Assembly (NCBI RefSeq): GCF_037392515.1
Contig: NC_090281.1
Location: 45,918,645 to 45,982,644, forward strand
Direction: 5' to 3'
Source of the DNA: Haliotis asinina
Lineage: Eukaryota; Mollusca; Gastropoda; Lepetellida; Haliotidae
Length of the DNA: 64,000 bases
In this document: positions 7,911-56,132 of the stretch, in pieces
Layout: the number at the start of each line of letters is the position of its first letter
Position numbering within the stretch: the stretch's first letter is position 1
The notes under the pieces: model-generated
What the model was told of the DNA's origin: nothing
Seen by the model: only the letters and a program-made list of their open reading frames with translations
Database searches by the model: none
Translations under genes and position numbers: made by a program

Positions 7911-8222
7911 TACGGTAAATCCTCTTTATGTCTGGGATCTCGATGAAAGTGCACGAATGAAAATCTGCATGATCTGAAATGAAGTAATACACCTACCCAC
8001 TGGTGGTCAGTACAGGCGATACATAGAAGTCAGTATTGGTACAGCCACACATTGTCAAAGGCTGGATCTGATTGGGACTGTTGGCTGGGAAAACCATAGA
8101 TGTAGGCAACTGGAGATACCAACGTCCATTTTAGCTGCATGCATCGCTATATTTACGGATGTATGTATTCTATGGGAATGATGTGACAGTAGAAATAAGG
8201 AAGAGAAATCGTTATGTCCTAC

Positions 8223-8447
8223 CAACTGAAATCCAGCCATGCATGGAGTCATGGTGTAGCTTCCCTGTAGTTCAACAGCAAGAATGATACCGTACTTGTT
8301 TTTTCCTCCATTGATGGTCAGGACAGGAGATACATAGAAGAGACAGAAGTCAGTCATGGTACAGCCACTCATTGTCAAAGGCTGAGGGTCTGTCAAGGGC
8401 TGGATCTTGTTGGGATTGTTGGCCGGAAAAAACATGGATGTAGGAAA
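8223..8447 (-). pseudogene. Fused exon 16 / exon 15 of the inverted copy
   Basis: Reading on the minus strand, exon 16 starts after a normal CAG at 8448-8450 and runs to the codons for VLTIN. The expected GG|GTAGGT donor is replaced near 8308 by the GGAAAAAACAAGTACGG block from the middle of exon 15. The frame continues across the joint (TINGGKNKYGIILAVE) to a TTG|GTAGGA donor. The joint has a few bases of microhomology around TGG. The exon 15 part and following intron resemble gene B, whereas the exon 16 part resembles gene A, so this marks an illegitimate or unequal crossover between A-type and B-type genes. Confidence 0.8.
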
Positions 8448-9019
8448 CTGGAAACATTAACTTTCATTTTAGGAGCATACCTGACTTATTGCAGGTAAAC
8501 TGAAACAGTAATCTACAGGAATAATATGACAGCAGAAACATGGAAGAGAAAACGTTATGTCCTACCCCTTGAAATCCGGCCATGCACGGGGTCATGGTGT
8601 AGCTTCCTTGGAGATCAGCAGCAAGGACGATACCATACTTGTTCTTTCCACCAAAATCTGAATACGTGGACCACACCTCCCCATCAGGACCCTCAAAGTC
8701 TGGCCACGCCATCTTGAAAACATGCATGATAATAACATTCTATTCTATAAAAGTACATATTTCATGCCAGTGTGTAAAAGTCTGCCTTTCTCTTTCATTT
8801 AAGTAGGCATAAACCACTGCGATGTAGCACAAAACACTCTCTTGATCATACCTTGTTACTATTACATTTAAACATTTAAACCAGCAGTTCTCTGTTGGTT
8901 GAAACATGACATTGCTGAGATGTATTGTGGAATCTGTTTTAAGAGTTTAATACTCGTGGACGGTTTGCAGAACTGGGGGTATTGATGTGGAGGGTGATTG
9001 TGAGTTTATTATGTTTTAC

Positions 9020-10005
9020 ATATTAGAATAAAATCCAGCAGAGAGGGTTCGGGTGATCCTGGCACAATCGGGCTGGTAAAGCTCATCATCAGCTCAGGGC
9101 CCTCGACCCCTCTACACGCAGCCCAGACAGTGAATGGGATTTCTCCCAGGAAACACTGCCTAGTCGAACCCACCAAGAACTTTCCGGAGAATATGGAGGC
9201 TCCCCAACACTGCAGTCTTCTGCATTACCCAGATTGTCAGAAAAGTTGTGCTCCCGGTGGAGAACCCGGGCACTCTCCTGAGATTAGGAGGTACCAAACC
9301 AAGGGCACCGAGAACAATGGGGAGCCTGACGACAGTGTACTTGGGATGCAAGCGAGACATTTCAAAGGCGAGGTCCGTATATTTATCATGCTTTTCCTGA
9401 ATCTTACCAATCACACTGCTGTCAAAACGGACAGAAAATTCTATCATATAAATAATTTCATTAGTTTTATCAAAAGTGACAAGATCAGGTTTGTTGGCTG
9501 GAATTCGTCTCAGGCTGTATATTGGCCTATTCCAGAGAAGCTTAAAAGCATCATTTTCCAGGACACCTTGGACATGTTCAGGGTCGTACCATGGATGGAC
9601 CTCTGGATCAAAGCCACAGGTGTGGCGGAGACGATAATAAAAGCAGCGAGCCATGCCATCATGGCTTTTAAGATATGCTGTTTGTGCCAAGGAAGGGCAT
9701 CCACTGACAAGGTGTTGGACAGTCTCTGTAAATTCATTGCAAAGACCACATTTTATTTTGATATTTATGGTTTTTAAGAATAACATTCTGGCGATTGCGA
9801 GTGGAAAGTAACTCGTCCTGAGCAGCAAAAAGGAAGCCTTCAGTTTCATATTTGAGATCAGCCGACTTCATCCAGGCAAAGGAGTCAGTTGGATTGCTGT
9901 TCTGTTCCACACACTGCATGTAAACACGATGCAATGGTTTCTCAGACAGCTTCTCCACAAAGGACCGACTCTGGGCAGACTTGGTGAAAAAAAGACATTA
10001 TATAT
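9020..10005 (-). mobile_element. 5'-truncated LINE, R2/NeSL-like endonuclease end
   Basis: The minus strand encodes the C-terminal part of a non-LTR retrotransposon protein, in two overlapping frames (9958-9734 and 9849-9160). In order it shows an AAQDELLSTRNRQNVILK segment, a CGLC-x-HLVSGC zinc-binding knuckle, SLAQTAYLKSHDGMAR, and a restriction-like endonuclease core KPDLVTFDKTNEIIYMIEFS. This layout is that of RLE-type LINEs (R2, R4, NeSL group). The switch of frame near 9800 shows at least one frameshift. The reverse transcriptase domain is absent. Insertion edges are set by where homology to gene A introns stops (~9020) and resumes (~10005). Confidence 0.75.
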
Positions 10006-11038
10006 CTGGTCTGTTTTCAAGACGAGGGTGTTGACAAAAGGCTGAACAAATACTCATGCTTCTTCTTCAGCAAGAGAAATCGCTAAGTAGTTCATATCAT
10101 GATGTCTCTCTGATGCATATAGCTGTCAGTGGAATTCCACATATTTTTACTCCACGATATCATTCTATTTTGTGGACAACCATACTCAGCTCAATTCACT
10201 CTCAACTATGTGACAATAGATATTTTCAGAAATCCATAGTCCAAAATCTCTAACAAAACAGTACATTAGCATTTCTGTGACATTGCTAATGTCAACATAT
10301 AGAGACATTTGTTCTTACCTGTGTGACGACAGGTATTTCCAGAGATTGCAGCATATGTCGCGGGTAGGACATGCAGTACTGAATGGTCAGTCCGTTCTTG
10401 GCGGCACCATTGCCCATGTGAGTCAGTGGCCAAGGTCAATGTCAGAAGGAGTTCTCGAATTTGTTCAAATTCTTCCTTCAGATAACCCTTCAGAAAAAAG
10501 GATTGCACAAAAAGCAATGCAATGAATTTGTAATGAAATGTTGAACATTATATTGGCTTATACTTGGTCTTACCTGTTCGTGAACAAACAGAACGCAATC
10601 CCTTGACTCAGCGAACAGGTCATTCCAAAATCTCTGAAGTGAGAAAGATTGTCTAAGCGTTTAGGGTAATGAATGGAACAAACGATGATCAGGCGAAGAA
10701 GCTAAGGATTATATTGCACCTACTGAACAAAATATGAATGCCATATCCAGCAGCGTGAGTACGTCTTCAAGCGGTGAAGTCTTGTGACCATCAATAAGGA
10801 AGTCATAATCTCCCCCATTAGCCTTTCCATAAGTTGTGTTACATGACCTACAATGTTAACAAACCATCAAACATTTTGTGATGCAGAGCTTTCATGTACA
10901 TATATGTGGGCTTCACGAATAGAAGCAACTCATTTCGACGTATCAAACCTAACAAAACCATCTTATGTTTTTCTCTTGACTATGATTGACTTCTTTGATA
11001 CGGACTTACCCTTCTCTTTGAGCAGTTGTTTTTGTGTA

Positions 11039-11129
11039 ACTACCCAGATAGCATGCATAGTGTGCCCAACATTGGCCCAACCTTTCCCAAAGTTAGGCCA
11101 ACGTCTGCCAAAGTTGGTATTTGGGTAGT
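11039..11129. mobile_element. 91-bp MITE
   Basis: It has 12-bp terminal inverted repeats, ACTACCCAGATA on the left and the complement of ACTACCCAAATA on the right. The interior repeats CCCAAC/GCCCAAC/GGCCAAC motifs. It sits in what was intron 8 of the inverted pseudogene, since flanking sequence aligns with gene A intron 8. There is no coding capacity. Confidence 0.6.
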
Positions 11130-11789
11130 ATTGATATTAAAACTTTTTACAGATTTGAGAAAAGTTAATGATTTCCGCATTTAAAATGCATCTAAAGCCG
11201 CCTTGAGTCAAACTGTTTTGAAAGATGAACTTGCATGCACGAGCAGATGGTTACATTTGTCATTAACAGGCATTAGAGGATTTACCCTTCAACACGTACA
11301 ATATCATTAGTGCGAGCATTGTCTGGCGTAAACTCCATGATCTTTGAAACCAAACACCAGTCCTCCATAAATAAGAAACATTTGCATATCTGGATAACTG
11401 ATAAGAACTGCACGAAAGAGCAGTTGCTAGCTGGGGACGTTGACCATATGTTCTGGCATAACAACTGACATGCGAGGCTTATGTTTGGTCCTGTCATAAT
11501 ATTATGATTATTTACGCTAACTACGAGTACTTACTGCCCTGCCATGAGATCCACTCTCCCGGACACGAGTCCTGCATAACTGAGATATCCCAATGGAATG
11601 GTTGATTCTTGAATTCGAAATCCAGGCAAGCGGTGTTGTTTGCTCCATTGATGAAACACTGTTGTCGTCATTAATGAAAAACAAGGGACAGCGGAATAAA
11701 TATGAAGAGTCAGCGACTGTCAGCAAAAACCTTGGGAGAAGCTTTAAGTACAAAATTAACTCGTTGTAATACAGGGTTGACACTGTTTG

Positions 11790-13130
11790 CTTGATCTGGT
11801 TTGGTTGACGTGAACAGGATTGTCACTGCTGGGCATGACAATGTTTGGTTGACCTGACCAGGGCTGTCACTGCTGGGCGTGACACTGGTTGGTTGACCTG
11901 AACAGGGCTGTCACTGCTGGCCGTGACACTGGTTGGTTGTCCTGATTGGTTGACCTTGTTGGTTGATCTGATCCAGTGCTGTTACTGCTGGACATGACAC
12001 TGGTTACTTGACCTGAAAAGGGCTCTCGCTGATGGACATGAGACTGTTTGGTCGACCTGAACAGTGCTGTCGCTGCTGGGCGTGACACTGGTTGCTTGAC
12101 CTGAACAGGGATCTCTCTGCTGGTCATGACGTGAACAGGTTTATCACTGCTGGGCATGACAATGTCTGGTTGATTTGAATAGTGCTGTCACTGCTGGGCA
12201 TGACACTGGTTGCTTGACCTGAACAGGGCTGTCACTGCTGGGCGTGACACTGGTTGGTTGACCTGAACAGGGCTGTCACTGCTGGGCGTGACACTGGTTG
12301 CTTGACCTGAACAGGGCTGTCACTGCTGGGCATGACACAGGTTGGTTGACCTGAACAGGGCTGTCACTGCTGGGCGTGACACTGGCTTGTTGATCTGAAC
12401 AGGACTGTCACTGCTGGGCGTGACACTGGCTTGTTGATCTGAATAGTGCTGTCACTGCTGGGCATGACACAGGTTGGTTGACCTGAACAGGGCTGTCACT
12501 GCTGGGCGTGACACTGGTTGGTTGACCTGAACAGGGCTGTCACTGCTGGGCGTGACACTGGTTGCTTGACCTGAACAGGGCTGTCACTGCTGGGCATGAC
12601 ACAGGTTGGTTGACCTGAACAGGGCTGTCACTGCTGGGCGTGACACTGGCTTGTTGATCTGAACAGGACTGTCACTGCTGGGCGTGACACTGGCTTGTTG
12701 ATCTGAATAGTGCTGTCACTTCTGGGCATGACACAGGTTGGTTGACCTGAACAGGGCTGTCACTGCTGGGCGTGACACTGGTTGGTTGACCTGAACAGGG
12801 CTGTCACTGCTGGGCGTGACACTGGTTGGTTGACCTGAACAGGGCTGTCACTGCTGGGCATGACACAGGTTGGTTGACCTGAACAGGGCTGTCACTGCTG
12901 GGCGTGACACAGGTTGGTTGACCTGAACAGGGCTGTCACTGCTGGGCGTGACACTGGTTGGTTGACCTGAACAGGGCTGTCACTGCTGGGCGTGACACAG
13001 GTTGGTTGACCTGACCAAGGCTGTCAGTGCTGAGCATGACACGGGTTGGTTGACCTGAACACGGCTCTCTCTGATGGGCATGACAGTGGTCGGTTGACCT
13101 TGACAGGTGTCTTACTGCTGGCTATGATAC
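11790..13130. repeat. 44-bp minisatellite with 264-bp higher-order repeat
   Basis: About 30 tandem copies of a 44-bp unit (GGTTGGTTGACCTGAACAGG, then GCTGTCACTGCTGGGCGTGA, then CACT). Central copies are nearly identical and the edges (11790-12170 and 13000-13130) are degenerate. Variant units recur in fixed order: GAATAGTGCT variants start at 12177, 12441 and 12705, exactly 264 bp apart, i.e. six-unit blocks. There are no unique spacers, so this is not CRISPR-like. The array begins about 130 bp upstream (minus strand) of pseudogene exon 3, where intron 2 and exons 1-2 would lie. Open frames across it are by-products. Confidence 0.93.
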
Positions 13131-13139
13131 TGATAACAC

Positions 13140-15690
13140 ATTTTGCGCTCATCCGTATTGCCTACACAGCAAATGTCTATAAAGATATGTGTCACACTCA
13201 GCTATGCGCCCATCTGTGTCACACTCAGTGTAAGATACAAGAGAACGAAATTCGAATTTACCTGGAGAGAGCGAGGGATATTTATGAATCCCGACAACTT
13301 TTGTAAAGTCAGTATATGAGACTGTAATGCATTATTTGTTGATCATACTCCATCTGATCTTCCCTAAGAAACGCCATAGAGAACATCAACTGACTTCAGC
13401 CTTTATGCTGTTTCTCATATGACGTCAGCCTTACCTTAGGACGTATTAAAATTCGAATGACCTCAACATTGCCGTCAAGATTACGTAATAAATACACGTA
13501 CACAGTGCACTTGCGATGTTTATCACGGGGTAATTGTAACCCTGCTGTAACTAACTATAACAGAAGGTTATAAATCTGCAGAAAACTTTAACTTTAACGT
13601 CAAGTGACTTAAAAACTGTTCAACCCCATGTACAGCCACTGTCACGCCATGCAATGCAGCATGACCGTACGCTTGTTAAATACAAGAGACAAGACAGACC
13701 AAAATATTGCTCACTTTCAGTAAATCTTACTGACCGGCAAATACTATAATTTTTTTTTTTTAAAAAAAACAACGTTTTATTCAGTGTTAGTATTAAAACA
13801 CGATAGAGTACCGGGAAGTGCCGAATATCGAGCTGTTAGGCTCAATAACGCTGAATGTTTGAATTCTGCTATACGCTTGTTACAAGTCTAAGTTATGAAT
13901 TAAAACTTGTAGCTTTTATGTGATAACTTGTTTGCTCAAATGTCGTTATTTATGCAGAATTTCACTCAACGGGGACACTTTCAATAAATAATAATAATGC
14001 TTTTTCTTAGTAAAAGCCGCACGAGGCTTGGGTACATGAAATCACGCAGGACATGATAACTTGGCTCTTATTGGTCTGTAATATTCTGGACATATTAATC
14101 ATAAATCTTGCCTTCATGTCTGGTTGTTTTAAAAATATCGAGACATCCTATTTATGTTTTTACTTTGTGATATCTATCCACATGCGATATGTAAGACACT
14201 ATATTGGAAGCCGCGTAAATATACCCTTGACCTGAGGGCAACAACCCCTGACCTCTTGACATCATGGTGATATAGCGTGCTACCAGAATAAGGTCAGTCA
14301 GTTGTCAATCAAATATTGCTGTAATCTACAGCTGAGGCTGTGCTCCGAACAGGGACGTACTTATATGAACCCCCATGTCTCAAAAGCAAAAATGTACACA
14401 CTGTTACGCCCCGGAGAGTATAACACTCAAGTAGCTGTAGTAGGCTCTAGACGAATTTAAAAAACAATGTTATCTGATTCTCTGTTGCCAAAAGAAAGCC
14501 ATGTTGTCAACAAAGATTCTTTAAGAGGACACCAAACAGAATCTGTGTTACAGCGTGAGGTACGAATATAGCCCTAGACGTTCAGGTAACAGATAACGAT
14601 GTTCTTGAAATATGGTATGAACACCTAACTAAACCCCACAAAAGCATGTACTGTTGAAAGATCGAGAGGAACCGTTTTAAACTTTTCCTGTATTTCAACA
14701 ATTGTGACGCTGATTTAGCAGCTGACGTCATGTCTGATTATGATGTCACAAATTGATATCATTATATCATCTAAACCAAGACTGTCCTCAGCAAGGTTTA
14801 ACAAGGTTCAGTTATATTTAGTACGTTAAGGTGACAATGGTAACTCCGTACAAAAATAATAACCTGAACATACTAAGAAATATACTTTTCCCTCCTTCTC
14901 ACATTTAGAATCGTCACAGCGTTTGTGTTTATCCTGAATCACTCAGATATGTAACATAACATCCAAAGAATTATGTCACATCAAATTCTGTCCGTTTTGG
15001 TCTTCGGCGTGACGAGCGAATGCTTTAAACACAAGGCAGCTCCACTGCTCCAATGTCGTTTTACATGGGAACAGTAGATGAGCTTTACAAGACGGACCGG
15101 ATGAGGATCCTCTTTGTTTCATTCATTAACTGAAATGTCTAAGTACTCTTATTCTTCTTATTATAATTACATATTCCTAGCGCATTATGCGATAGTGCTC
15201 AGTCGAATTTAGCGGGAAAGGGCGTTTGTTGTTGGAAAATTTTGAAAATTACATTTGACCTTTTATGTCGATGCAATATTTACAAAAGAATAACGTCATC
15301 TCACAGAGACTCCAGATTTTGAGCTACAATACTATCAGATTCACTGTTGGTAAGAAGGACTCCGAGGAGACACGTTACATAATCTGTATTTCAGCTGGGG
15401 ATAGGGGCAAAGCCAAAGGCATGCATATGGTCACGGGACACCATGCAGATAACAGTGTTCATGAAATGTCATGCTTTCTCCAAACTGAACCAGTCATAAA
15501 CTTCCAAAGATTCTAATTCAGTGTTTGCTCACATTGCCGTCTGAGATAGATGATGTCCCAGAATCGTTGAGCACTGACGACCAAAACGACCGTCACATTT
15601 AACCTTGACACGCAGTGACAGATTGCTGGTGACACCGCACATTATCAATGTCATTGATTTGGGTTATGTCCTGACACAGTGCTTGAAATA
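13140..15690. other. Intergenic, no gene recognised
   Basis: It separates the minisatellite from gene A. A T10/A8 run lies near 13750. No conserved coding frame, SINE or transposon signature was recognised. Confidence 0.5.
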
Positions 15691-15695
15691 GCGCC

Positions 15696-15742: not shown

Positions 15743-18700
15743 ATGTGTCTCAGGAGCTGGTTGTACGTATCTCTGGTTTCTTGGCTCTGCGTCAGTAAGT
15801 ATATATTTACACAACCATATTCTCACACCTAGAACTCACAACAATCACCCGGTTGTGTCATAACTTCATAAACATAAGCTTTCATGATTCTTGCAACTCT
15901 TAATCGAATACGTTCATGCGATGTACAACGCCGTGTTAAAACATTCATTACGTAACGATGCTTCTAGCACAATTTCTAATAACGTCATTAAATGCGGGTC
16001 TGCAAGGTAATGCAAAGCAAAGACCATTTTCAAATGTGAAACACATATTTAAACATCGAGTATTACATAAATGTGATGTTAACTGAACTTAGCACATCTG
16101 GTATTAACAGTTATTGGTGAATGGGTAAGCTTAGTTCTTCACCATTTCAACATTATGCCAGCAATATCATGTCGGGAGACACCAACTAATTTATATTGTT
16201 CCCTTTGTCTTTGGAGTGACGCTTTATTCACAGGGTTAGCTCAACGCCCCTAAATAGTATGTCGCGGCGGAACCAGAGAACACACCATGATGCCATCATT
16301 AACTAATGCATTATTAAACATATTGAACCTTTGAGTATGATGAACTCAAAGTTTTGGCAATGGGAAGCAGGTTGTTTGCTGGCCCCGTATAACATCAGGA
16401 CTCGAACCCTCACATGGGTACAACTGGTCTCTCATACAGACCCTGAAGCAAATGTATCAAAGAAAGTCCACACATGTCAAGAAAATGTGGCAAGTCTTGA
16501 TTTCCACAGCTTCAGAAAGTCTCAGGATTCCTTTTCATTAAGTTATATTATTTCACTATACACCTTTTCAGTAAGCTGTGTTCATTTCGGAGACTAGTTG
16601 TTAGTCAAGCGTTCAAAAGTTGTTAGTCTAGGGTATGTAACAGTTGTTAGTCTAGGGTATAATGTGTGGTGTCCACCGCCGTGATATTCTAGGAATGTTA
16701 CACGTCAAACCATATTCACTAACTCACTTAACGTCAAGGCATCAGACGATCCTGTGTACTGATGTGTTTGTTTCTACAGTTCACATAGTCATGAACTATT
16801 TTTAACTTCAGCAATCTCCGAGGGAAACCAAGACTTTGCTGTGAACGTCAACAGTGACGGCACCTACAACGTCGTGATTCAGGGAGATGTGTGGCTGAAG
16901 AGTGCTCCCACCTTCTTCAGAGCTGATGGTCAAGTATTCTCCTCTGCTGATGGATCTCTGAAACTGGTCAAGAACACTCAGTCCAGTGGTGAGGATGTCA
17001 TCGGGCAGTGGGAGGCCAACAACTTCTTGTACCAGGCAGGGTCCAGTCAGATCGAGGCCAGCTTTGTACAGTACACACCAGACCCAAGCATATTCACCTA
17101 CAACAATCCATCCTTACCGTTCATGTTGTTCAAACAGGTGAGGACACTCCATCTAGGATTGTAAATGTACATAAATACAAACAGAGATTACTTAAGTTCA
17201 TTAAAGATAAGCATATCAGCTTCGCCTCGTCGCCAGTGTGCCGAGAGACCTGGCACCAGTGCAACATATATAGACAATTCATGGGATAAGTTCAGTTGAA
17301 GTTTTGCCAAGACTTCGCAAACGTTTTATGCAACGAGTTACTGTCGTGTTTTTAGAAGAAAAAAACTCTTCATATTCTATCCTGTCTTTCTTTTTCTTTC
17401 ATCAATGACGACATCAGCGTTACATCAATGGAGCAAACAACACCGCCTCAAACAGCAGTGCCTTCACCATTTCTGGCTTTCCTGGGTTTCTAATTCAAGA
17501 ATCAACTATCCCACTGGGATACCTCAGTTATGCAGGGCTCATGTCTGGGAGCCTGGGTCTCATGGCAGGAGGGTACGTACTCGTAACTAAACGTAGATGA
17601 CCGTGATATTATGACAAGACCCCGCATAATGTCAGGAAATCAGTTGTTTTGCCAGAACATGCATGCGGTCACCGTCCCCAGCATGCAACTGCTCTTTCAT
17701 GCAGGTCTTATCAATTCTCCCCCTGTCGATTCCAGATACAATGACATGTCGTATTCCCGGATCGGAATATGCAAATGTTTCTTGTTAATGGAGGACTGAT
17801 GTTTGGTCTCATGAGGCTCATATCAGACAATACTCGAACTATTACTATTGATGTTGTACGTGTTGAAAGGTTCACACATAAATCTTCTGATGTCTGTTGT
17901 ATTTCCAGAAAATGCAACGGTTTATGGCAATGGCAGCCATCTGCTCATGCATGTTTTCTAAAACGATTTGAATCCCAATTACCTAAAAAATGAAATATCA
18001 AATATACCATCTGTTGCAAATGGTGTATAATAAAACAACGTTTTTACAATCAATTTCAACCTTTGTGTACTTGTTCTCAAGGTGGGGACCATCATCATTT
18101 AAAATCAACGACGGTATAGAAGGTGGACCCCTGGCTTTATTTGATCGAGTGAAGACTGCAAATACACTGATTATCTCCCCTGCCAGTCGGTTTATGTCGT
18201 CATCAATATGGCGTCAGAACTCCAGCACAGGAGGAGACAATGTCTACTGGGGGACGATGGGAGGAGTTGAAAATGTCCCTCTTGGCGTTGAGACAAGTTT
18301 TGTTCTTTTCTATGGTAACCAAGGCATTAATAAGGTAAATGTCATTCAACTTACGAATAGCCGCAAACATCACGTAAGAACATCTTATGACCATCGTATC
18401 AACCATGGTATCGTTCTGGCCTTTTTCGTAACTTTTCTGTATTTTTAGATATTATTTAAGTTAGTCGACATGTTTCCATTTCAATGTTACGCTTTGAAAC
18501 CTTTCAGACATAAACATATCCTTCAACATCATAATAATCAAATGCTTTGTACCTTTGATCACGAAATGTTTGAAAATGTTGTTGTAGGCCTTCGTCAGTT
18601 GGGGTCAGATTCTGCAACGATGGCACGGCCGTACAGATCAATATACGAAGTCCGACTTTACCATCAACTACTTAGGGTATTGGATGGACAATGGTGAGGA

Positions 18701-43500: not shown

Positions 43501-45978
43501 CCTTGACTTGATATGTCGTCCTTGGGATACATGTGCATCTGTGAAAAGGTTAACTCGTATGAAAAGATTTGTACAATAACGTGTTATACAATCAATGACA
43601 ACTGTTTTATACCTTTACTAAAGATGGGGACCATCATTCAAAATCGACGACGGGATCGAAGGTGGACCTCTAGCTCTATTTGACCGAGTGAAGACTGCAA
43701 ATACACTAATTATCTCCCCTGCCAGTCGGTTTATGTCGTCATCAATATGGCGTCAGAACTCCAGCACAGGAGGAGACAATGTCTACTGGGGGACGATGGG
43801 AGGAGTTGAAAATGTTCCTCTTGGTGTTGAAACCAGTTTTATTCTTTTCTGTGGAAACCAAGGCATTAACAAGGTAACAGTTTCAGGTTTGTTTTTCAGG
43901 TTTGTTTCTGTTACAGTCGTGCATTTGATCTAAACAGATACCTACGTTTCGATGTCTGTGTTTGACTTCACACGCTTCAATACTAAAATCCATATTTCTC
44001 CTTCAAAACCTTCCAAAAACATGGTAATGTACCTTAGAAAAATACATTGATCATGGTTGCAGGCCTTCGTAAGCTGGGGGCAAATCTTGAAACAATGGCA
44101 CGGCCGTACAGATCAATATGTCAAGTCCGACTTCACGTTAAACTATTTAGCATACGGAACAGACAATGGTGAGGATATATGGGGATGCTTTGATTTGATT
44201 GTCAACATTTTGCAGTTTTGGTGCTGAACCGAAAAAAGTGCAATATATCCAGCAGACAAAAGATACCTTATCTATTATCTTTGCACAACATAATTCCACA
44301 ATTAGCGTAACCTGAGGTTGTTCCGAGTTACCACGGACATCGTTATCATATTGTTACACATGTTGCCAAGTGAAAGGCTCACTCGTCATCATTCATTTAT
44401 GGTAAACAATGCCTTTGGCTGAAAGTAAATGGACTGGTGACAGAGCTCGACATTGCGTAATTCCTGAGAGTGCCTCTCAATCTGTAACAGATCTTTAATG
44501 TGGTGCAAGAGTCTTTAATGTCATAAGGCAAGTGTCTTTGCCAAAACGATTGCTCCTTGTTGTAATTACCGGTTTTTTTTGTTTTGTCTTTTTTTTTTTT
44601 TTTTTTTTTTTGTTGTTGTTTTTTTTTGTGAACACACCCGAAGAGAACGTGTTGTTTATTCAGGGGCGTACTACTGTTGGCGTTCCGAGGAAGGAAAGAA
44701 CTACCAGGACACAGTGTTGGACATCAAGAGCTATATGGCAGAGATAGGGGTGCCTATCAAGTTAGTGAACATGTGCATGCTTTCAATACTTTTGTTACAA
44801 CACATGTAAGATGAATTAAAAGTTCTCTCCCAAAGTATGCCCCGTGAAAAAGAAACATTTAGTTATCTGTTGTCGAATCTCACATGCATGAATCGTTTTC
44901 CAAAGAATACTACCCTTACAGTATGTTTTCTACAACTAGCTGGTTGTGATTCTCTGTGTCGACTGGGAAAATGACTGGAACAATCCTCATAGCATGCTTG
45001 ACTATTAGCGGCATTTAGAATGTGTTATGGATGACCAAGATATTTCATCGATTATCTTTTTAATCTTTCCCACGCAGCGTTTCGGGGTCATTGTAGATTC
45101 CTTCATTAGGTGAAATGACAGTTGATACTACGACGTCGATCCTATGACGTCATAACAGCGCCTAAAATATCTCAGTATTCTTTATATTGTTTGCCTGCTA
45201 TAAACAGTTGGTCAGAATCTTTCTTGTATTGGGTGCCTTAGTCACAATAATAACGATGTTGTTAATTTGCTAGTTACGACCAGAACGGCATACTCCTGTG
45301 ATACTGGCCTTGCTATTTACTTGCAAGGTACATGCAATGTGACGCAACAGCACCGTGGTACGCTGACTGTTACAATGGAGATGTGAATTTTAAAACTGAA
45401 ATCTTTTTCCGAACAAAAATACATTTACGTTATGTTTTACGTGTAGGGACCAATTCTCTTTCTTCTGCTTGGTTAGTTTCTTTGAGACAAATGACGAAAT
45501 AATCCGAGAAGTCATCATATTGTTTAAATACGGCAGCGTATTAGGGCCACGGTGAAAACTTTTTTGGTGTCACTATCTCCTACCTATGACTTAGTATCTC
45601 CTACGTAGGACTTACTATTTCCTACGTAGGACTTATTATCACCTTCGTACGACTTACTATCATCTACGTAGGAGATACTAAGTCCGACATAGAAGATAGT
45701 GAGTGTTTTACCTGAGTCTAGACTTTTAATGGGTAGTATAGTTGTTGCATATTACTTTCATGTGTTGGACCGACTGTTGTACTTTATTGCCTCGCGTTCA
45801 ATTTGCCATATTGTTACGCGTTGCAGTTACATTTTTCTATTCAGCACTTTTACACTCGTGTCATAACGAGAATTTCATATCGGAAACTGCCCCCCCCCCT
45901 CCTCTCTGTGTGTGCGTTCGTGAGTGCGTGTGTGTATACCCATAACTGCAGTTAGATCAAGGTCCACGTCACCCAAAC

Positions 45979-46043
<65 letters not shown>

Positions 46044-47306
46044 CACAATAACACTGTGTAGTAACACTGCGTTATTGTCATAAATATGCATTGACGTGCA
46101 TTTCTACTATCTAACGTTCTGCATAACCAAATATTTCTCAGTAACCACACTTCATATAATCCGAACCTTTAAAAGGGTATGTACTCAAAATAAGTAGGGG
46201 AACCTGAACTTTCAATTTGGATAGGAACTGTAAACGTTAACAAACGTTTCAAGGACAGACATCTTATGAACGCACCACCATTTCCCTCTCTTACCACCCC
46301 TAAACACAACGCATGATATGCACGTGCACAACGCAGTAGTCCCATACACGTGCATGGGGTCCCATTCTTGATTTTGACGTTTTTTCAAGAAGGTCGAGAA
46401 ATCAATTAGAGCATTAAATTTGACACTCATCTTGCATCACACATTTGCTAGTATTTGTTTCTAGTGTTTTTTGTTTTTTAAAATGAAAATCGTATGCATG
46501 CAAATTACATGCCATCCACCAATCATCTTTCAAAATACATTCCAAATAACTATGGTTGTTAAGAAGTGCAGATGGTGATGCACTCTCAAAACATTCAATA
46601 ATATCATATCAACATTGACTGACTTCGATGAATCTCCTAAATATGTTTAACCATAAATAAAAAAAATGAAGATCCCCTACTTTTTTTAAAGAGTATATTA
46701 AGTACTACGTGGCAGATAGTATGTCCTACGCAGGAGATACTAAGTCCTACGTAGGAGATATTAAGTCCTACTTAATATCTCCTACATAGAACTTAGTATC
46801 TCCTACGTAGGAGATATTAAGTCCTACGTAGGAGATAGTATGACCTACGTAGGAGATAGTGACACCAAAAAAAGTTTTCACAGTGACCCTAATACGCTTC
46901 CATAGTAGATACTGCTAAGACAATGGTTAATGTTCGATAGGTACATTCAGTCCGATGCGTGCCGATGGTGATTGGACAATGACCTTGTTGTTTACTTGCA
47001 GGTACATGCAATACGACGTAACATGGTACAGTGACCTTCACAATGGTGTTGTCTCATGGTCGTGTCCACCTGATGTTTTCCCCAATGGACCGCAGTAAGA
47101 TTTCTTCCTTTATTGAACTGGATGAATATTGTAATGCTTCATTCAATTATGTTAAGATTACTTGCACTTTCGTGTTCGTCTCACTGACATTCCTTCTATA
47201 GTTTGTCGTTATGTTTATGCAAGGTTTGTATGTGTTCATGAGTATACTTTCATATTTCAAATCGAGTTAGTTTCATTAGTTTCAAAGATGGGGGTTCAGG
47301 TTAGGT

Positions 47307-47341
<35 letters not shown>

Positions 47342-47398
47342 ACGTACGTACACATACATACATACATACATACATACATACATACATACATACATACA

Positions 47399-47432
<34 letters not shown>

Positions 47433-50400
47433 CATAAGGCGTTAAACTAAACTCACTCACTCGCTTAATGTTTATTTCACTTCAACTCTGCCACTATACA
47501 CCTCATACAAATGTCTCTAGACATATGCAATTTCCTTGATGTAAGTATCTGGTTTGTGTATCAAAGTGGTGGTATTCTATCGGGACCATAACACTGTATT
47601 ATGACATTTCAAGTGTGGTTGGTGAAACCTAATAACGTAGTTTCCTTTGCTTTACTTCATCCTGTGAAAAAGATGGCTCTATAACAAGACAGAGTTACCT
47701 GTGTTTGGCTACAACCCATTCTGGTGAGTCAAGTCAAGGAATTGGGATGTAAGAGTCAGACTTGTCTACATGTAAATACGATACTTTTATATATTAGAAT
47801 TTCCTTATTCACAATCTGAGAGAAGAAGCAATACTTGCAGAACAAACACAATTATTACAAAATTATATGGAAACACACTATCCCAAAAATGAAACGCATC
47901 GGCGACTTGTATTTTGATAACCTCTTATAACTACCTCTTGTGTTCAAACAATCGTCAACATGGAACAAAAGTGTCGACAACATGAATTTACACAGCTGCA
48001 CAAGTAAACAATCGACTTTACCTGAAAATGTTGATTTTGATAATATTTCTAACAAGGATTAGAAAGGCACAACGCATCATAAATCAATTTCCAGTTGAAA
48101 TTGTGCAGCAAAGAGCATTCGCTGTCTGGCAATAAAAATCCAGATTACGTTCAGAAATTGGCATTCGTTTTGGAGGAATTTCAAGGTCAAATCATACGTC
48201 AAGTCTTGACTCTGCGACACGGAACATCGCCACTGAGCGAATGCAGCTGGAGATTACCAATCTTCTGTTGCCAGGCGTCTGAATGTTAGTCTGAGCAAGA
48301 TATCATGACTTGCAGCTCGTTGCAATCAAACAGGTATAACAAATGGCCGTCCCCGTACTGGCAGACCTCGAGTTACCACCGCAGCTCAAGATTGGTACAT
48401 CCGGGTTCAACAGTTGCGTGATCGTACGCGTACTGCCACGGGTGACAGCACAGCAGCCAGGGTGCCTGGACTCCAGAGGATATCCGGTCAAACTGTATGG
48501 AAGAGGATGAAAGAGATTGGTCTGAAAGCCAGGAAACCCGACGTTGGGGTTGTGCTGCGTCTTCACCATCGCACTCAGTGTCTCCGTTATGTAAAAGTAT
48601 CCACTTGGTTGTGTAGACATTACCTTCTTCTAAACTGGTGTAAATGCACTAAAGTCTATTTGTAGACGAGTTATACATGTGTGAAAATACAACAGATTTC
48701 TCGTCTATGCGTTTCTTTTTTGGATAGTATGCTATGACGAACGAGACCTGGCCATCAAAGGAAACGATATTCATGACGTGTATTTAAAATTATTGCACTA
48801 AGAATGGCTTTTGCAAATGATAATTCTATTCCCGCTCCATTTAGTTTGAATACGTCAACATGGACTGTTTTTAGCTGTTTCTGAGTCTTGCACATATCTG
48901 TTGGCTTGTTGTCGTTGTAGGTCCAGTAACACAACCTACGCCACTGCTAATGGAGGAAAATATCAATTCCTGATCGATGGTCCAAAGGCTCTACCACTGG
49001 AAGAGGTACCGAGACTACTAGTTATTTCATGAAAAATTGGTACAATTTAAGCTTTTCCTTTTCCGCTTTCTCCTCGTGTGAGATGTGAATTCGGGTTGTT
49101 TCATGTTAGATTCATTAACTGACATGTTTTTCTTTACGTTTCAGAGGTTTTGGACTGATTTGCTGGCCGGGGGAAGGAAATGGGGATTGATTGCTTACGA
49201 ACAGGTACCATCTCTGATTACCAAATATAATATCTTCAGACTAGACGAGAGAACATACGTATTTTCTATGAATATGTTGGGGTTTTTTTTGTTTCTGTAG
49301 GATTACCTCAATGTAGAATTTGAAGGAATACAAAAACTTCTGACTGACATTGACCTTGGCCGCCAATGGCTGACTCAGATGGGCAATGGGGCTGCCAAGA
49401 ACGGACTGACCATTCAGTACTGCATGTCTCTGCCGAGACATATGCTGCAGTCTCTGGAAATACCTGTCGTCACACAGGTAAGAGAGAATATGGTTTTGAG
49501 TTAACATACTGCTAGACACATATTAGATGATCCTGCGCACTAAACGCATTTGTGACAAGAGAGGCGGTACAACGAATTGGGCGAGTACACTTGGCTGCTA
49601 CAGGTAGCTTGACGATTATGCACGTGCAATACATGCTAACCGTGACATGAAATCAACACCGCTACTGATTAACACGTGTCTCGCTACTGTTTTACACCTG
49701 TTTCGCTACTGTTTTACACCTGTCTCAATACTGTTAAACAGATTTCAGTTGTAGTTAAAAATGTCCAAGTTAGGAAAACATGGGCAAATAGTTCATTCTC
49801 AGGCAAGGGAGATAGCATACAATGTTATCATGTATATGGACAAAAACTGTGCAACCAATTTTACAAAGTGGCCTTGCTACTGGACTCTCAACGGCAACTT
49901 TAAAGCGCATTAAGGCAGAAGGTGGTAGGAGTGCGAATGGACCTACATTTATCAGTCCCACCAAGTTGCGCAAACTCAAAACTTGCAGTTGCAAACTTGA
50001 TGATTTCGACCGGTGTGCAGTCCGTCAATTTGTACAAAGTTTATATGTCGTAAAAAAACAACTACCCACTCTGGATACGATGTATGATATGGCAAAGTGC
50101 CAGTTGAACTACGAGGGTTCTAAGGAAAGTTTTCGAAAAAAATCTCAAATACATGGGATTTAGGTGGCGAGAAACGCAGTCAAACCGTAAACTTTTAATG
50201 GAACGTAAAGACATTGTTTCCAAGCGTTTGCAATACTTGTGTGCAATAAAGAAATACAGAGAAGAAAATCGAACACTCATCTTTATCGATGAAACATGGT
50301 TGCATGTACACCACATTGTCCCAAAGGGTTGGCAAATTGAGGGTGAAGTCTTAATAAATGGGGTTCAACCTCCGTCTGGCACCAGACCTCGGCTTATTGT

Positions 50401-53400
50401 GGTTCATGCAGGGGGTGAAAACAGTTTTGTTCCAAATGCTTTGCTTGTTTTTGATTCCAAACTGAAACCAGCAGACTATCATGACGGGATGAACTTTGAT
50501 AATTTTTCCAAATGGATCCAGGAAAAGTTGATACCAAACCTTCCACTGCACTCTGTCATCGTTATGGATAATGCACCATATCATAGCAAGCAAGTGGACA
50601 AATGTCCGACAACCGCCAACTGAAAAGATGACATAAAAGCGTGGCTACAAAGGCACAATATCTCATTTGATGAGAAAATGCTTAAAGCCGAACTATTGTT
50701 TCTTGCAAAATCCATCAAATCGTGCCCTGTCTACAGAGTAGACACGATGTTGAAGTAACATGGTCATGATGTACTACGTCTCACTCCATACCACGCAGAA
50801 CTAAACCCGATTGAGTTAATTTGGGCAGATGTGAAAAATCATGTCGCTTCACAAAACTTACAGTTCACAAAAAGTTCCTTAAGAGTTGCCATAAATGAAA
50901 GGATGTCTGCAATCGGTGCAAAAGAATGGTCGGAATGTTGTAAACATGTTAAAATAATTGAAGATGGTTACTGGCAACGCGAAATCGCAATAGAAAGGGA
51001 AATTGACAGACTAGTGATTGACTTAGGACTTGCAAGTGATTCAGACACCGAGACTGATTCAGAGAGTGATAATTAAAGCTTAAATCAGTAAGTCCGCCTA
51101 ATGTTCCAGCATTGTTGTGTCTTGTATAATAATTGACATGTACTATATCAGGTTTTTACTGTTCCCATGCTTTGTCATAAAAACGAGTAATCTTTGGTGA
51201 GTTTATATTTTTTTAGTCACTGATAAATCTACTGAGTGGTACTGAGTCTGGTACTGAGTCTGGTACTGAGTAATCCCCAAACCGACAAATTTGTGTACAA
51301 AGATATTTCTCACTGACTTATCAATGTCAAAAGGTATTTTCAGTTTTCTGTACACAATTTTGGTGACCATAATGAAAATATGACAGAAATTTGGAAATAT
51401 TGTTTGAATACTAACCATTTCTCTGGAACCGGTTATATAAATTTCCAAGATATGTATTCCCGGTCGATCACCAGCGGAATTATGGACGAAAATCAGCCCG
51501 TACAGAGAAACAGGAACAAAATTATGGGATAAAAATATTTCCCCCTTGCTTCTCTGATTTAGCCACCACCATTTAGTAACAGATAACATTTAACATATTA
51601 AAAATGAAAGTTAAATGAAACACAATTAACTATATGTAGTTATTGTATATTTAATATTTAGCAGACGAAAAGTCAACTTTACCCATTAGAACAACACCGC
51701 ATATTCCTTCGAATGATAGACTTCAATTTCAGGCATAAGATACAGATATTCCACGCTAACCTGTAGTTAAGACGAAGACAAATAGATTATTGGGGCATTG
51801 ACAATCATTTTAGATATTCAACAATTTTGTTAAAAAAACAGGAAAATGTCATTTGCTTCGTGAAATGGATCGAAGGTCCTAAACATATTTGCTTAGTATA
51901 TTGTGTTGATTCAATTCGTTGGGATTGTACCTGTTCCCACATCTTGTTTCAAGTGTTCCCTCTTGTTTCAAGTGGATCGTTCTGTAGGGCGTTCCCAAGT
52001 ATGCAAATTGGGGTCATTTGTCAGGTCGTGGATCATCTTATATGTGTTTACCAGTAAGGTCGTATATTTCATGGAGAGCTTGGAATATTGGTTCTTGGAT
52101 CTAAAGAGAAAACTGCGTTTATGTGTCAGAAGAGCTAATGATGTGATGACATCTCGCATTATACCTCAAGAGCAACACTTGTATGATGATCAATGTTTTA
52201 CCTCGTTTTATTGTTGGCAATCCGTGCAAGAATTCTGGTCCATGTGAATCGGATTGAGGTTGTGAAAATGCATGGCGTCAGGAAACAGAGCAAATGTGGA
52301 CTCCATCAAGTAAAACAGTGTAAACCTGAGTAATGTACGTTTCAGGCCCGTGCAAGCCATGACAACATACCAGGAACCGACAACTGGAAGATCGGTGTGA
52401 CGTCACTATTTGCATGGGCTATTGGCATTGCACCCTTCAAGGATATTTTCTGGACGACCAGCGTTCAACCTGGGAATACTTACAGTATGGAGAAAACTAT
52501 TTCATCTTCATTGATTTCATTTTCATCCCGAGAAGGATGTCTTGTCCACTCAAAATAATAAACAGGTATAGCATCGTGATGTGTCAAGAACGTTGGTGAA
52601 AATTGATCCATGTGTTGCAGATGCATCGGAACCATATCCGTCCCTTCAAGCCGTGGTTGCAACCTTAAGTACAGGCCCAGTAGGAATTGGTGACATGGTT
52701 GGGGGCACAAACAAGACACTCATCATGAAGTAGGTTGTTGAGAGAGTACTTCCGTAAACAACTAGATTAATCCACGCCCATTCTTTGGTTTTATAGCTTG
52801 CATGGGAGTAAGTGTTTACTGTGCGTTTAGTTTATAATTTATTTATCCCTTTTTAGTAAATAGGAGATTTCATATTCGGTAGTTTTTAATTCCTTCACCC
52901 TCCATGTACCAATTTTATCCTGTATTTATTCCTGACTTAAACTCTTTTATAGATAACTTCTCAATTCTATATTTTCATTTTTCCTGTATTAAGAATGTAT
53001 ATATCCATATTTAATACTGTATTTCTTTATTAATATTTGCTGTCAGTCATTTATCATGTATTACTTCGGTAATCATTTTAGACCACGTATGTTTATCTGT
53101 ATCTCGTATGTCACTCTAGCATATAGCATCTGTCACTCCTTTTTCATTTATTATTTTTTTATCTTTATTAACTTTTAATAGTTTATTGTACCTGTTTTTC
53201 TTTACAACAAATGGAATTAGTTTCCAAAGATAATCACTATGGGTTATTTCTGTTTATATCTACTGCAGTCCGTCCATTTATTATCGAATTTACTCTCATT
53301 TTCTATTTATTTATCATGCACTAATTATTTGACCTACGTATTCATCCGTGCATTTATTCACTGACGCTTTCTACAGATCTGTAAATGCTGACGGTCTGAT

Positions 53401-56132
53401 CTTGAAACCATCTCGACCAGCGACGGCCATTGACAACAGAATACGGAGGGTATCGGTGCCTTTGTCTTTACTCCAACACAGCCCCGTTGATTGGAAGGCA
53501 TCTCCAGCAATGCATCATAAATGTCATCATTCAGTAGAAACTTGCCAGGATAACTACATCTATTAAAAAAATCTTAAATGCGACTAATTTTAATGCCATA
53601 ATTTTATTTACTTGATATTGCATCTGAAATGGAATCAAATACTTTGACAAAACCGATATGCGCTCACCATGCGTGTTTTCTAGATGGCCTGGTCCGACTT
53701 TGAGGGTCCTGATGGGGAGGTTTGGTCCACGTATTCTGATTTTGGTGGCAAGAATAAGTATGGCATCATCCTCGCTGCTGATCTTCAGGGAAGCTATAAC
53801 ATGACACCTTGCATGGCTGGATATCAAGGGGTAGGACAATAGAGTCTTTCTACCATTACTTGATTTCAGGTGGTTAGTGTGCGGGTTTTCATGTATATAA
53901 ACCGAACCACTAAAGAAACGTCACACCGATGATTACCACTCCAATTAACAAACAAAACGGAGTTCCAATTTGACACTCATGGTTAACACATTTTCGGGAA
54001 TCACTTTTTGAGGTATCCATGGACATCGATGAAAGCATTGTCTCTATATGGAATTGAAGTAGCCGGCTGGTGGAAGCCATACTCTACCAAATGCCTGATC
54101 GACTCCAGCCGCAGTTGCCAGCCTTGGTTCGAGGTCGCTTAGCCTTCCTCGAATCTCGTCCCAAAGGTTTTCTATTGAACTTAAATCCGGACTGAGTGTA
54201 GGCCACTGTAGGATTCGGATGCCATGTTGTCATAGGAAGTTCAATGCTACTCTCGCAGAATGGACACAAGCGTTGACTTGCTGGAAGATTTCTGTTACGT
54301 CTAAAATGTGATAGCACGTTGGGTCTTATGACTTAGTTAATATGGCTAGCAGGTGTCACGTCTTTATTTCACACTGGACCGAGATTCTGGGACACCACGG
54401 TAACATCGCTCTGTCTCAAACTGACTGCACCACACACCATGGTGCTAGGACCACCCCACGAGTCTCTTTCAACAATACACTACATGGAAACAGTTGCCCA
54501 CGTCGTACTCTCACTCTGCCATTAGCTGAAAATATCAGCTTCCATCAGAAATAAACAAAGTTTTCCATTGCCGATAACATCAATTTCGATGCTGACTTGT
54601 CCATTGTAGTCGATGTTGGTGGTGACAAGTTGTAAGGACAGCACTACGACGTGGTTTGTGACAGCAGAGGTTTCTTCCGCGTAAACGTGGTCGCACTACA
54701 TCGGCACTAATTGGTCTGTTGTCAACCCCAGTGGTATAGTGTGCTGTTTAAGTTGCTTTCATTGGTAGGATTGTCACGATATGATCGTGCATTTCTATAT
54801 TCAATGATGTCATTCTTACCACATCTGCCTTTTCAGGTGCGTTTGGTCGATACGTTCTCATCGGAAAACACACTGTTAGTTTTGATTGAAAAACATGTTA
54901 CGAAAACGGTACATTTCATAATAGAAACACCACATTGTAACATTTTCGTTTTGAGAGGTGGCGTTTCATTTGTGGTTCACTATACATGCGAATGGAGTCA
55001 TGTGTGCAGCAAAAATGCGCGTTATTCTTCTCAGTTCCCTAGCTCCATGGTTTTCCCGGCCAACAACCCTAACAAGACCCAGCCCTTGACGGACCCTCAA
55101 CCTTTGACAATGAGTGGATGTACCATGGCTGACTTCTGTCTCTTCTATGTATCGCCTGTACTGACCATCAGTGGGTAGGTGTATTACTTCATTCCAGTCA
55201 TAACGGACATTACGTTTCAACCAAAGAAGAAACTACAGCATCTCAGGAAACTCGGCAAAATAGATATTTATTATTTCAAGAGGCTATATACTCCAAAATA
55301 TACGAAAGGGACGTGTGTGAACTCGTTATCAAGTGCGAATCGACACTGAAGAGCGTACTAAAGGCACGAAAAGGACATGGAGTAGTGACATTTAAGAAAA
55401 TATACATTTAAGAAAATATACTGAACTGTAGTGAAAGGCAAAAGAAACATCACCGGAGACTGTGTCGTTGATCTGTCCTTAACCTTGCCATAACTGCTGT
55501 GTTCGAAAACCAAATGAATGATTGCCGGCAAGCCGGCAGTTTATGCCTGAATACAAGCATGATACCCGTTTTACTGTTGTAATGAATTTACCTACACTGA
55601 CTTCAGAGTTTCTATATGTATATGTACAGGTTACTTTAGGATATTTTTGTTTAAATAGTACACATTGTAAGCAACGTTACAAGTATTAAGCTCTTTGTTT
55701 TTTTTTTGTCCGTTTTTATTTACAACGTGAAGTAATTGAAGTAACACATTGAGTCACAAATGTTGTCTGAAAGATGAAGACAGGTGGATTATGTTCGTGC
55801 AGCAGAACCAAAGTGCTATATATGATGTCGATGGGATGATGGATGGCAATTCGATAATACTTCCTAAGTAAGTATGTATTATCAAATAATTTTCCCGCAG
55901 CAAACAAGTTCTGATCCAGGGTGAGTTGGACAAGTGGGTGCCGATGTCACCCCAGAGAGTAACGGACATCAACATTGCCGATGACATCACCATCAGTCTC
56001 ACTGGGGCTGCCGACGAAACTGTCTCCTTCTGGTTCAACGTGGATGGTAAATCCTCACCTGTAACCTGTACCCTCGGATCAGGAGGAACAGCCAGCCTTA
56101 GTTTCACAGCAGGCACGTGTCGTGGTGTATAA
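40508..56132 (+). CDS. Gene C: secreted glycoside-hydrolase-like protein, 763 aa
   Basis: Exons: 40508-40559, 41708-42033, 42316-42470, 43624-43873, 44063-44168, 44664-44760, 47002-47094, 47673-47723, 48921-49005, 49145-49204, 49301-49477, 52346-52484, 52621-52729, 53377-53449, 53684-53830, 55035-55174, 55901-56132. All introns are GT-AG and the phases are as in A and B; the stop is TAA. Signal peptide MFSMACIHLVLSLLLCVG. Exon 4 is one codon shorter than in A and B. Candidate catalytic Asp are D426 (YEQD) and D490 (ARASHDN). The active-site loops are of the gene B type (YGTDNGAYYCW, DVTWYS, PVFGYNPFWS). The gene is nearly twice the length of gene A only because introns 6, 8, 11 and 15 have taken in mobile elements. 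The poly-T tract 44590-44633 directly precedes exon 6. Confidence 0.9.
40682..40938 (+). repeat. SINE in gene C intron 1
   Basis: Near full-length forward copy: GTGAGTTAGTTACTTTTTAC start, GACCACCCGATCCCGTTAGT, CGCCTCTTACGACAAGCATA, ending CTATTCTACCCCGGACCTTC. Confidence 0.85.
45328..45385 (+). pseudogene. Ghost exon 7 start, first copy, gene C intron 6
   Basis: After TTTACTTGCAAG comes GTACATGCAATGTGACGCAA, aligned codon by codon with exon 7 (YMQCDATAPWYADCYNGDV). Homology ends near 45385 and there is no donor. It lies 1.67 kb upstream of the used exon 7, separated from it by the foldback element. Confidence 0.65.
45529..46904. mobile_element. Foldback element, TACGTA family, gene C intron 6
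   Basis: Left end at 45529 (TACGGCAGCGTATTAGGGCC, then TTTTTTGGTGTCACTA and TCCTACGTAGGA-type units to ~45700). Right end 46690-46904 (the same units reversed, GTGACACCAAAAAAAG, TAATACGCTTCCATA). The middle, 45710-46680, is unrelated sequence with a (CA)n tract. It is either one 1.4-kb element with a unique core or two half elements. No flanking duplication was evident. Confidence 0.65.
45985..46037. repeat. (CA)n microsatellite
   Basis: About 26 uninterrupted CA dinucleotides in the core of the foldback element in gene C intron 6. Confidence 0.95.
46941..46990 (+). pseudogene. Ghost exon 7 start, second copy, gene C intron 6
   Basis: TTCGATAG then GTACATTCAGTCCGATGCGT aligns with exon 7, but the frame reaches TGA after about nine codons. 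It is 61 bp before the used exon. Its acceptor context (AATGTTCGATAG) matches that of the used exon 7 in gene B (AATATTTGATAG). The used gene C acceptor (TTTACTTGCAG) instead matches gene A. Confidence 0.7.
47311..47434. repeat. (AC)n-(CATA)n compound microsatellite, gene C intron 7
   Basis: A (CA)n run, a GTACGTACGTAC bridge, then about 20 tetranucleotide CATA repeats. It is followed directly by a SINE tail fragment (AAGGCGTTAAACTAAACTCA). Confidence 0.9.
48150..48600 (+). mobile_element. Tc1-like transposase fragment, gene C intron 8
   Basis: The forward strand encodes the HTH region of a Tc1-type transposase: TGRPRVTTAAQDWYIRVQQL, RDRTRTATGDSTAAR, ISGQTVWKRMKEIGLKARKP. It ends abruptly before the catalytic domain, at the start of the repeat shared with the left edge of the window (48597-48735). 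Upstream codons are frameshifted. Confidence 0.75.
49790..51080 (+). mobile_element. Tc1/mariner-superfamily transposase, DD82E (Sailor-like), broken
   Basis: A transposase gene inside intron 11 of gene C. An N-terminal HTH stretch (GLATGLSTATLKRIKAEGG) lies in one frame to ~50160; the rest is in another (LLMERKDIVSKRLQYL). The catalytic core shows IFIDETWLH, VIVMDNAPYHS and AELNPIELIWADVK. There are 81 residues between the second Asp and the Glu, far more than the 34 of Tc1/mariner and matching the spacing I recall for the DD82E Sailor group. An acidic Asp/Ser tail (DSDTETDSESDN) ends the protein. One frameshift and two in-frame stops (near 50622 and 50756) make it inactive. Terminal repeats were not found. 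Confidence 0.75.
54060..54700 (-). mobile_element. Degraded Tc1-like element, gene C intron 15
   Basis: The minus strand carries a decayed transposase C-terminus: SARVALNFL, GIRILQWPTLSPDLS, IENLWDEIRGRLSDLEPR. Upstream of it are pieces resembling the MVWG region. Stops interrupt it throughout. It is distinct from the Tc1 families at 6101 and 34780. Confidence 0.65.

Follow-up and report, generated by a model that had tools for sequence, protein, structure and literature searches.

A tandem array of probable alpha-galactosidase-superfamily glycosidases, with two predicted pocket types, in the marine snail Haliotis asinina

A 64,000-nucleotide stretch of the Haliotis asinina genome (C2:45918645-45982644, within a 1.14-Gb assembly of 159 contigs; hereafter the window) carries three intact paralogous genes, A, B and C, together with an inverted relic of a fourth copy. 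We read the window, with a probability of roughly 0.7, as part of a tandem array encoding secreted exo-glycosidases of the alpha-galactosidase superfamily (glycoside hydrolase (GH) clan GH-D type), in a family that rises above no Pfam cut-off. The fold and the catalytic machinery are known ones, while the lack of a Pfam family, a predicted altered pocket and the presence of two predicted pocket types in one array would be new. The family is set apart by Pfam models only, and CAZy may already name it; no paper evidently on this glycosidase family was found in the open-licence literature searched. In that literature, a table for a scallop digestive-gland extract includes one alpha-galactosidase (PMC5159873).

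Gene models were built from a six-frame self-comparison, which gave three conserved series on the same strand, followed by splice borders that are consistent between the copies. Each of the following models is backed by its splice sites, an open frame and a cross-prediction control:
15743-24146, plus strand: gene A, 17 exons (15743-15794, 16812-17137, 17418-17572, 18082-18334, 18588-18693, 18908-19004, 19620-19715, 20027-20077, 20394-20478, 20612-20671, 20771-20947, 21378-21516, 21623-21731, 22017-22089, 22583-22729, 22848-22987, 23915-24146, including the stop)
26964-37980, plus strand: gene B, 17 exons (26964-27006, 28050-28375, 28731-28885, 29172-29424, 29596-29701, 30099-30195, 30500-30592, 31007-31057, 31390-31474, 31580-31639, 32019-32195, 33916-34054, 34224-34332, 35851-35923, 36394-36540, 36654-36793, 37749-37980)
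40517-56132, plus strand: gene C, 17 exons (40517-40559, 41708-42033, 42316-42470, 43624-43873, 44063-44168, 44664-44760, 47002-47094, 47673-47723, 48921-49005, 49145-49204, 49301-49477, 52346-52484, 52621-52729, 53377-53449, 53684-53830, 55035-55174, 55901-56132)

All 48 introns are bounded by GT-AG and share the phase series 1,0,2,0,1,2,2,2,0,0,0,1,2,0,0,2. The spliced products of A, B and C comprise 765, 761 and 760 residues, each frame being open to one terminal stop, the last base of which is 56132 in gene C; an in-frame ATG at 40508 provides an alternative start to 40517 for this gene. When exons 2-17 of each gene were predicted from the other two, 46 of the 48 reached 0.58-1.00 of the self score, and the low values for A exon 7 and C exon 4 reflect lengths that differ from those of their counterparts, a mismatch that an ungapped score is unable to accommodate. 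Reversed or reverse-complemented DNA gave 96 control values, each at most 0.15. A sequence-only reading of this DNA had proposed three 17-exon genes lying head to tail, with identical phases and open spliced frames, and the splice models and the 96-value control bear this out. A segment just 5' of gene B exon 2 (27847-27936) resembles the start of that exon (∼53% of 34 residues).

The same reading had described three intact paralogs plus a relic, and all four are present, but they form only part of an array that continues beyond the window. In a protein search of the assembly, 59 of 245 candidates were scored and 68 matches were listed; every one lies on C2, and 11 loci have an exon-2 match. 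A tblastn search of the flanks added a twelfth, K, giving at least 12 loci. Copies D-G follow A-C on the same strand, others are inverted, and a remote copy, R, lies ∼30 Mb away (C2 15.92-15.94 Mb). The spliced frames of D, F, G and R are open from exon 2 through exon 17, in the phases of A-C, and their donors are all GT except for a GC after D exon 4. For K (46.079-46.094 Mb, minus strand), 14 of 16 exons have exact splice sites, with exons 2 and 15 recognised by tblastn only. E is interrupted by a TAA in exon 6 and terminates early near its C-terminus, and a further broken copy near 46.11 Mb contains in-frame stops. Copies near 45.86, 45.88 and 46.14 Mb are known through matches only, and weaker single-exon matches occur at 7.77, 15.89, 34.85 and 43.56 Mb. 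Several tandem exon-7-like fragments precede exon 7 of E (C2 ∼46.0124-46.0128 Mb, L049-L050).

Exon 1 of A, B and C encodes a hydrophobic N-terminus, as judged by hydropathy, and ends in a GTAAGTAT donor in phase 1. Similar first exons with hydrophobic N-termini lie upstream of E, F, G and K, and none was found for D or R in the short upstream stretch examined for each. From these hydrophobic N-termini the products are likely to be secreted, and the signal peptides claimed earlier are putative.

When prokaryote genomes were scanned by tblastn, using the snail alignment, relatives appeared in two 'Deltaproteobacteria' metagenome-assembled genomes (MAGs), at 29-32% identity. Searches of 7 genomes in one phylum and 377 in the other, with the two starting genomes included, found this bacterial family in 5 and 21, respectively; its members are 26-33% identical to gene A. 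Comparison of the snail and bacterial profiles with hhalign gave a probability of 100 and an E value of 2.8e-67 over 538 columns. None of 61 pattern matches in viral contigs encodes a relative. One bacterial relative (L079:145-3348, minus strand), a single open frame, has a C-terminal PEP_mutase match (E 1.4e-48) and is a possible fusion.

Pfam scans took in gene C, snail A, B, G and R, and 25 bacterial proteins, and none of these exceeded the cut-off of the GH36 models Melibiase (PF02065) and Raffinose_syn (PF05691). For gene C, Pfam gave nothing at E up to 10 and the PDB no sequence relative (best E 1.3), the first piece of the bacterial relative L056 had a sub-threshold Melibiase match (E 0.015), and three bacterial pieces run against NCBIfam had no credible match. 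A Raffinose_syn search of the snail genome also gave no match, but it was equally silent in 14 of 14 control genomes and is uninformative.

The AlphaFold check proposed in the sequence-only reading was run on a bacterial relative, L055, rather than on the snail proteins. The AlphaFold2 model, built with 25 sequences, has a mean predicted local distance difference test score of 89.8 and a predicted template modelling (TM) score of 0.88, with low confidence for residues 1-55. In Foldseek, the first five matches of this model are plant GH36 chains (7EXF, 7EXG, 7EXH, 7EXJ; E 3e-26 to 8e-25, TM 0.62-0.65), followed by Thermotoga GH36, GH27 and GH31 enzymes. The model shows the architecture of the alpha-galactosidase superfamily (clan GH-D plus GH31), a (beta/alpha)8 barrel flanked by beta-sandwich domains, and hhalign links the snail proteins to the bacterial ones.

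A published passage on this superfamily, in which GH31 is included, places the nucleophile on strand 4 and the proton donor on strand 6 of the barrel (PMC1249566). Residues were compared across an alignment of 32 rows, seven snail and 25 bacterial, with E and K outside it. Asp428, Asp492, Arg488, Glu426, Lys518 and Asp519 (gene A numbering) are invariant in all 32 rows. In L055, the column of Asp428 holds D345, directly after a strand (339-344) that we count as strand 4, while D409 follows strand 401-405 and fits the acid/base position on strand 6. In a PDB profile search, the family motif R-T-S-x-D aligned with R-A-S-D-D (RASDDF) of the plant GH36 protein (E 0.007). Asp428 and Asp492 are accordingly placed as candidates from motif and order, at these positions, with codons checked:
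20771-20773, plus strand: gene A Asp428, putative nucleophile (YEQ-D, end of barrel strand 4), 32 of 32 rows; B 32019-32021, C 49301-49303
21393-21395, plus strand: gene A Asp492, putative acid/base (R-x-S-x-D, after strand 6), 32 of 32 rows, from the profile alignment; B 33931-33933, C 52361-52363

The predicted fold of L055 and the conservation of both candidate catalytic aspartates support the earlier description of these proteins as GH-like.

Genes B and C share changes at three barrel positions, at which the other 30 sequences are uniform (codons checked):
18681-18683, plus strand: gene A Trp294 (strand 1), Trp in all 30 other rows, replaced by Gly in B (29689-29691) and C (44156-44158)
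19639-19641, plus strand: gene A Trp337 (strand 2), Trp in all 30 other rows, replaced by Thr in B (30519-30521) and C (47021-47023)
20064-20066, plus strand: gene A His375 (strand 3), His in all 30 other rows, replaced by Tyr in B (31044-31046) and C (47710-47712)

E and K have W, W and H at the corresponding motifs. Residues specific to B and C are concentrated in exons 6-8, with 19 in 80 codons versus 14 in 661 elsewhere (Fisher p 1e-11). No genomic donor of this exon block was found among the 42 matches listed, in which identity outside B and C reaches at most 83% for any piece and at most 66% for exons 6-7. Despite the three replacements, B and C keep the catalytic pair, Arg488 and Glu426. 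With the pair kept and the pocket remodelled, they probably act on a different sugar or only bind one.

The last possibility can be extended into a rival account, in which B and C, if not all of the snail proteins, would be pseudoenzymes that put the fold to another use, as secreted carbohydrate-binding or structural proteins of mucus, egg coat or shell. The loss in B and C of three residues kept in 30 of 30 other sequences, together with a ratio of nonsynonymous to synonymous substitution rates (dN/dS) of 0.13 between the two genes, would suit such a role. Pseudoenzymes often lose catalytic residues, but both catalytic aspartates, Arg488 and Glu426 are all retained here, and we regard this account as rather doubtful. 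It overlaps our preferred reading as far as B and C are concerned, and the odds of the two need not total one.

A second rival holds that these are ordinary GH36 alpha-galactosidases acting on raffinose- or floridoside-type alpha-galactosides, the sequence differences being drift. The nearest solved fold is indeed that of a GH36 plant alkaline alpha-galactosidase, and weak Raffinose_syn matches (E up to 1) were obtained for all four of snail A, B, G and R (best E 0.004) and for three of 25 bacterial proteins (best E 0.003, 15.9 bits against a cut-off of 20). All of these are below the Pfam cut-off, however, gene C matched nothing, and identity to the plant enzyme is 11-13%. A description of the 7EXF enzyme lists Asp243, Asp244, Trp307, Lys381, the nucleophile Asp383, Arg443 and the acid/base Asp447 in the -1 subsite (PMC9912918). 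The GH36 arginine four residues before the acid/base aspartate is found in all 32 rows (Arg488 and Asp492), but the Lys-x-Asp nucleophile motif of GH36 and GH27 is replaced by Glu-x-Asp in 32 of 32. Of the strand-2 Asp-Asp pair, Asp335 occurs in 31 of 32 rows and no row has a second Asp at either neighbouring position, while strand 3 carries His in all 30 sequences other than B and C. Because the catalytic aspartates are kept and the Lys-x-Asp motif, the strand-2 pair and the strand-3 residue are altered, we place the family within the superfamily but outside GH36 and GH27, and consider the ordinary-GH36 account unlikely.

Over exons 2-17, all 21 gene pairs have a dN/dS of 0.11-0.22, and this purifying selection argues for function. 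A third account, that the intact frames are a modelling artefact or the genes silent or decaying, has the decaying neighbours on its side (E with its two stops, the 46.11-Mb copy and the broken relic), but is highly improbable given the low dN/dS in every pair, the recovery of 46 of 48 exons by cross-prediction and the absence of any control value above 0.15.

Pairwise synonymous divergence (dS) of 0.35-1.24 suggests that the duplications are not recent, and it is unevenly spread along the genes. Between A and B, dS is 1.00 in exons 5-8 plus 10, and the four remaining blocks have 0.15, 0.49, 0.53 and 0.29. In the tree of exons 5-10, B and C form a clade with 100% support and a stem of 0.205, and a position as sister to A plus D is favoured (approximately unbiased (AU) test, p of the two alternatives 0.028). 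For exons 11-14 the B plus C stem is 0.022 with 68% support, and the best trees of exons 2-4 and 15-17 split B and C, the splitting branches being supported at 35-79%. We suggest that this pattern is most simply read as an old divergence of the pocket exons, with the other parts of the genes subject to gene conversion; alternatively, exons 5-10 may change faster in most lineages.

In the preferred reading, the enzymes would be retaining and work by double displacement. Asp428, where strand 4 ends, would attack a terminal axially linked (alpha) sugar at its anomeric carbon, Asp492 after strand 6 would serve as acid/base and Arg488 would hold the sugar. The predicted pocket differs from the galactose pocket of GH27 and GH36 in that Glu426 would replace Lys and His375 would stand where GH36, judging from residue order, seems to have Trp. 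The A-type pocket, predicted for A, D, F, G and R, would be that of the bacterial relatives, while B and C would have a remodelled one, probably for another sugar or for binding without cutting. Gene conversion probably keeps some of the outer exons alike, and exons 5-10, which encode the first half of the barrel, stay distinct.

A broader proposal is that a marine snail and bacteria have in common an undescribed glycosidase family, with the alpha-galactosidase fold and catalytic pair and a Glu-x-Asp pocket for a sugar other than alpha-galactose. The snail array would then be a cassette system, in which duplication and conversion homogenise the outer domains while exons 5-10 remain distinct and give A-type and B/C-type specificities. 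We hold this to be possible rather than probable, in part because the tree tests do not reject B plus C monophyly.

Several results weigh against the interpretation developed here. The AU p values for B plus C monophyly are 0.10 in exons 2-4 and 0.057 in exons 15-17, so that it is not rejected in either, and among three trees that all keep B plus C the usual tree is not rejected in any block. Nor is the dS peak in exons 5-8 plus 10 special to B and C, as A-D (0.58) and F-G (0.83) also peak there and B-C (0.38) does not. For B/C-specific changes, the replacement-to-silent ratio in exons 6-8 is not significantly different from that of the remaining exons (Fisher p 0.16). The folded protein is the bacterial L055, not a snail one, the first 173 residues of the snail profile do not align with the bacterial family, and beyond the strand-6 motif the proposed pocket mapping draws on motif, sequence order and secondary structure. 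Finally, the bacterial neighbours name no substrate. The neighbourhood scan covered 22 of 45 listed flanking frames with Pfam, plus three frames beside L055 and L056. A beta-agarase-like gene lies beside L056 (L056:6797-8614, minus strand; PDB match E 8e-28, no Pfam match at E 0.01), the matched agarases being presumably GH50, and pectin acetylesterase-type genes adjoin L061 and L063; there is no consistent partner, and the rest have no evident sugar link or no match.

Positive selection on B and C was also considered and dropped, on the replacement-to-silent test just given, the raised dS in the same exons and a dN/dS of ∼0.2.

As to use, extracellular digestion of dietary (algal) glycans would be the most likely, although this is a guess. 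If active, the snail proteins would be enzymes that an animal secretes, belonging to a well-known clan and having a pocket unmatched by the curated Pfam models tried. Their bacterial relatives are single open frames and should express easily, making substrate and mechanism directly testable, and A versus B and C offers a natural swap system for three pocket residues.

The relic upstream of gene A is a broken, inverted mosaic copy (7817-11710, minus strand), with 71-87% blastn identity to gene A in its A-like pieces:
11265-11710, minus strand: exon 3 and flanking intron, A-like, 71-73% to A 17365-17898
9998-11040, minus strand: exons 9-11 with their introns, A-like, three pieces at 74-84% to A 20210-21323
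8308-9014, minus strand: exons 15-16, A-like, 87% to A 22304-22987, with 94% over 545 b at 8308-8851
7963-8310, minus strand: second partial exons 15-16, 81% to B versus 75% to A
7817-7939, minus strand: intron 16-like, 73% to A 23330-23457

The earlier term 'inverted chimeric relic' proved apt, since the second exon 15-16 segment, among otherwise A-like pieces, is nearer to B than to A. A 235-residue frame at 9160-9867 has a zf-RVT match below the cut-off (E 3e-5) and sits in the gap between two relic pieces, which makes an interruption of the relic by a retroelement fragment probable. The exon-3 end adjoins a 44-bp minisatellite (11771-13121), with ∼23 copies in 12127-13121 alone.

Other repeats lie in and around the genes. 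A Tc1/mariner-type transposase frame (5987-7093, plus strand, 368 residues) matches DDE_3 and HTH_Tnp_Tc3_2 above their cut-offs, and related pieces occur in gene B at ∼34.9-35.5 kb and in gene C at ∼48.3-48.6 and 50.1-50.6 kb. A 21-bp unit containing a CCTACGTAGG palindrome forms arrays at 3770-4213, 45572-45680 and 46695-46860, the last two within gene C intron 6. A ∼2-kb tandem unit (offsets 2014 and 4043 b; 96% identity over 2994 b) occupies 59002-64000 and runs past the window end. Elsewhere in the genome, Egg_lysin (PF01303), a family not known outside abalones and related top snails, has six clustered matches on C14 (26.67-26.92 Mb, best E 2.9e-12), which indirectly supports an abalone-like mollusc; the control for this search is weak, since the eight named among its 14 control genomes are bacteria or archaea. 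COX1 had no match, so the mitochondrion is apparently absent from the assembly.

Among the systems compared, clear homologs are the proteins of the 'Deltaproteobacteria' MAG family and their relatives (L055, L060-L085), which carry the same motifs at the identities to gene A given above, but are single intronless frames that leave the snail N-terminal region unaligned. The GH31 enzymes MYORG (7QQF) and YicI (8T7Z) are lower-ranked fold matches from the same superfamily. The snail and bacterial family has no GH31 Pfam match listed in the scans, and its nucleophile context is YEQD or FEHD, whereas that of GH31 is W-x-D-M-N. TmGalA (1ZY9, GH36) and the rice enzyme (1UAS, GH27) share the barrel fold and differ at the pocket positions discussed above, with the Melibiase match sub-threshold only. 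The best fold match is AtAkaGal3 (7EXF-7EXJ), an Arabidopsis GH36 alkaline alpha-galactosidase of the SIP/raffinose synthase group, whose R-x-x-x-D acid/base motif was aligned by profile and whose two catalytic aspartates stand in the same order. At 11-13% identity, however, its Lys381-x-Asp383 corresponds to Glu-x-Asp in the snail and bacterial family, its Asp243-Asp244 to a single Asp and its Trp307, judging from order, seemingly to the His on strand 3.

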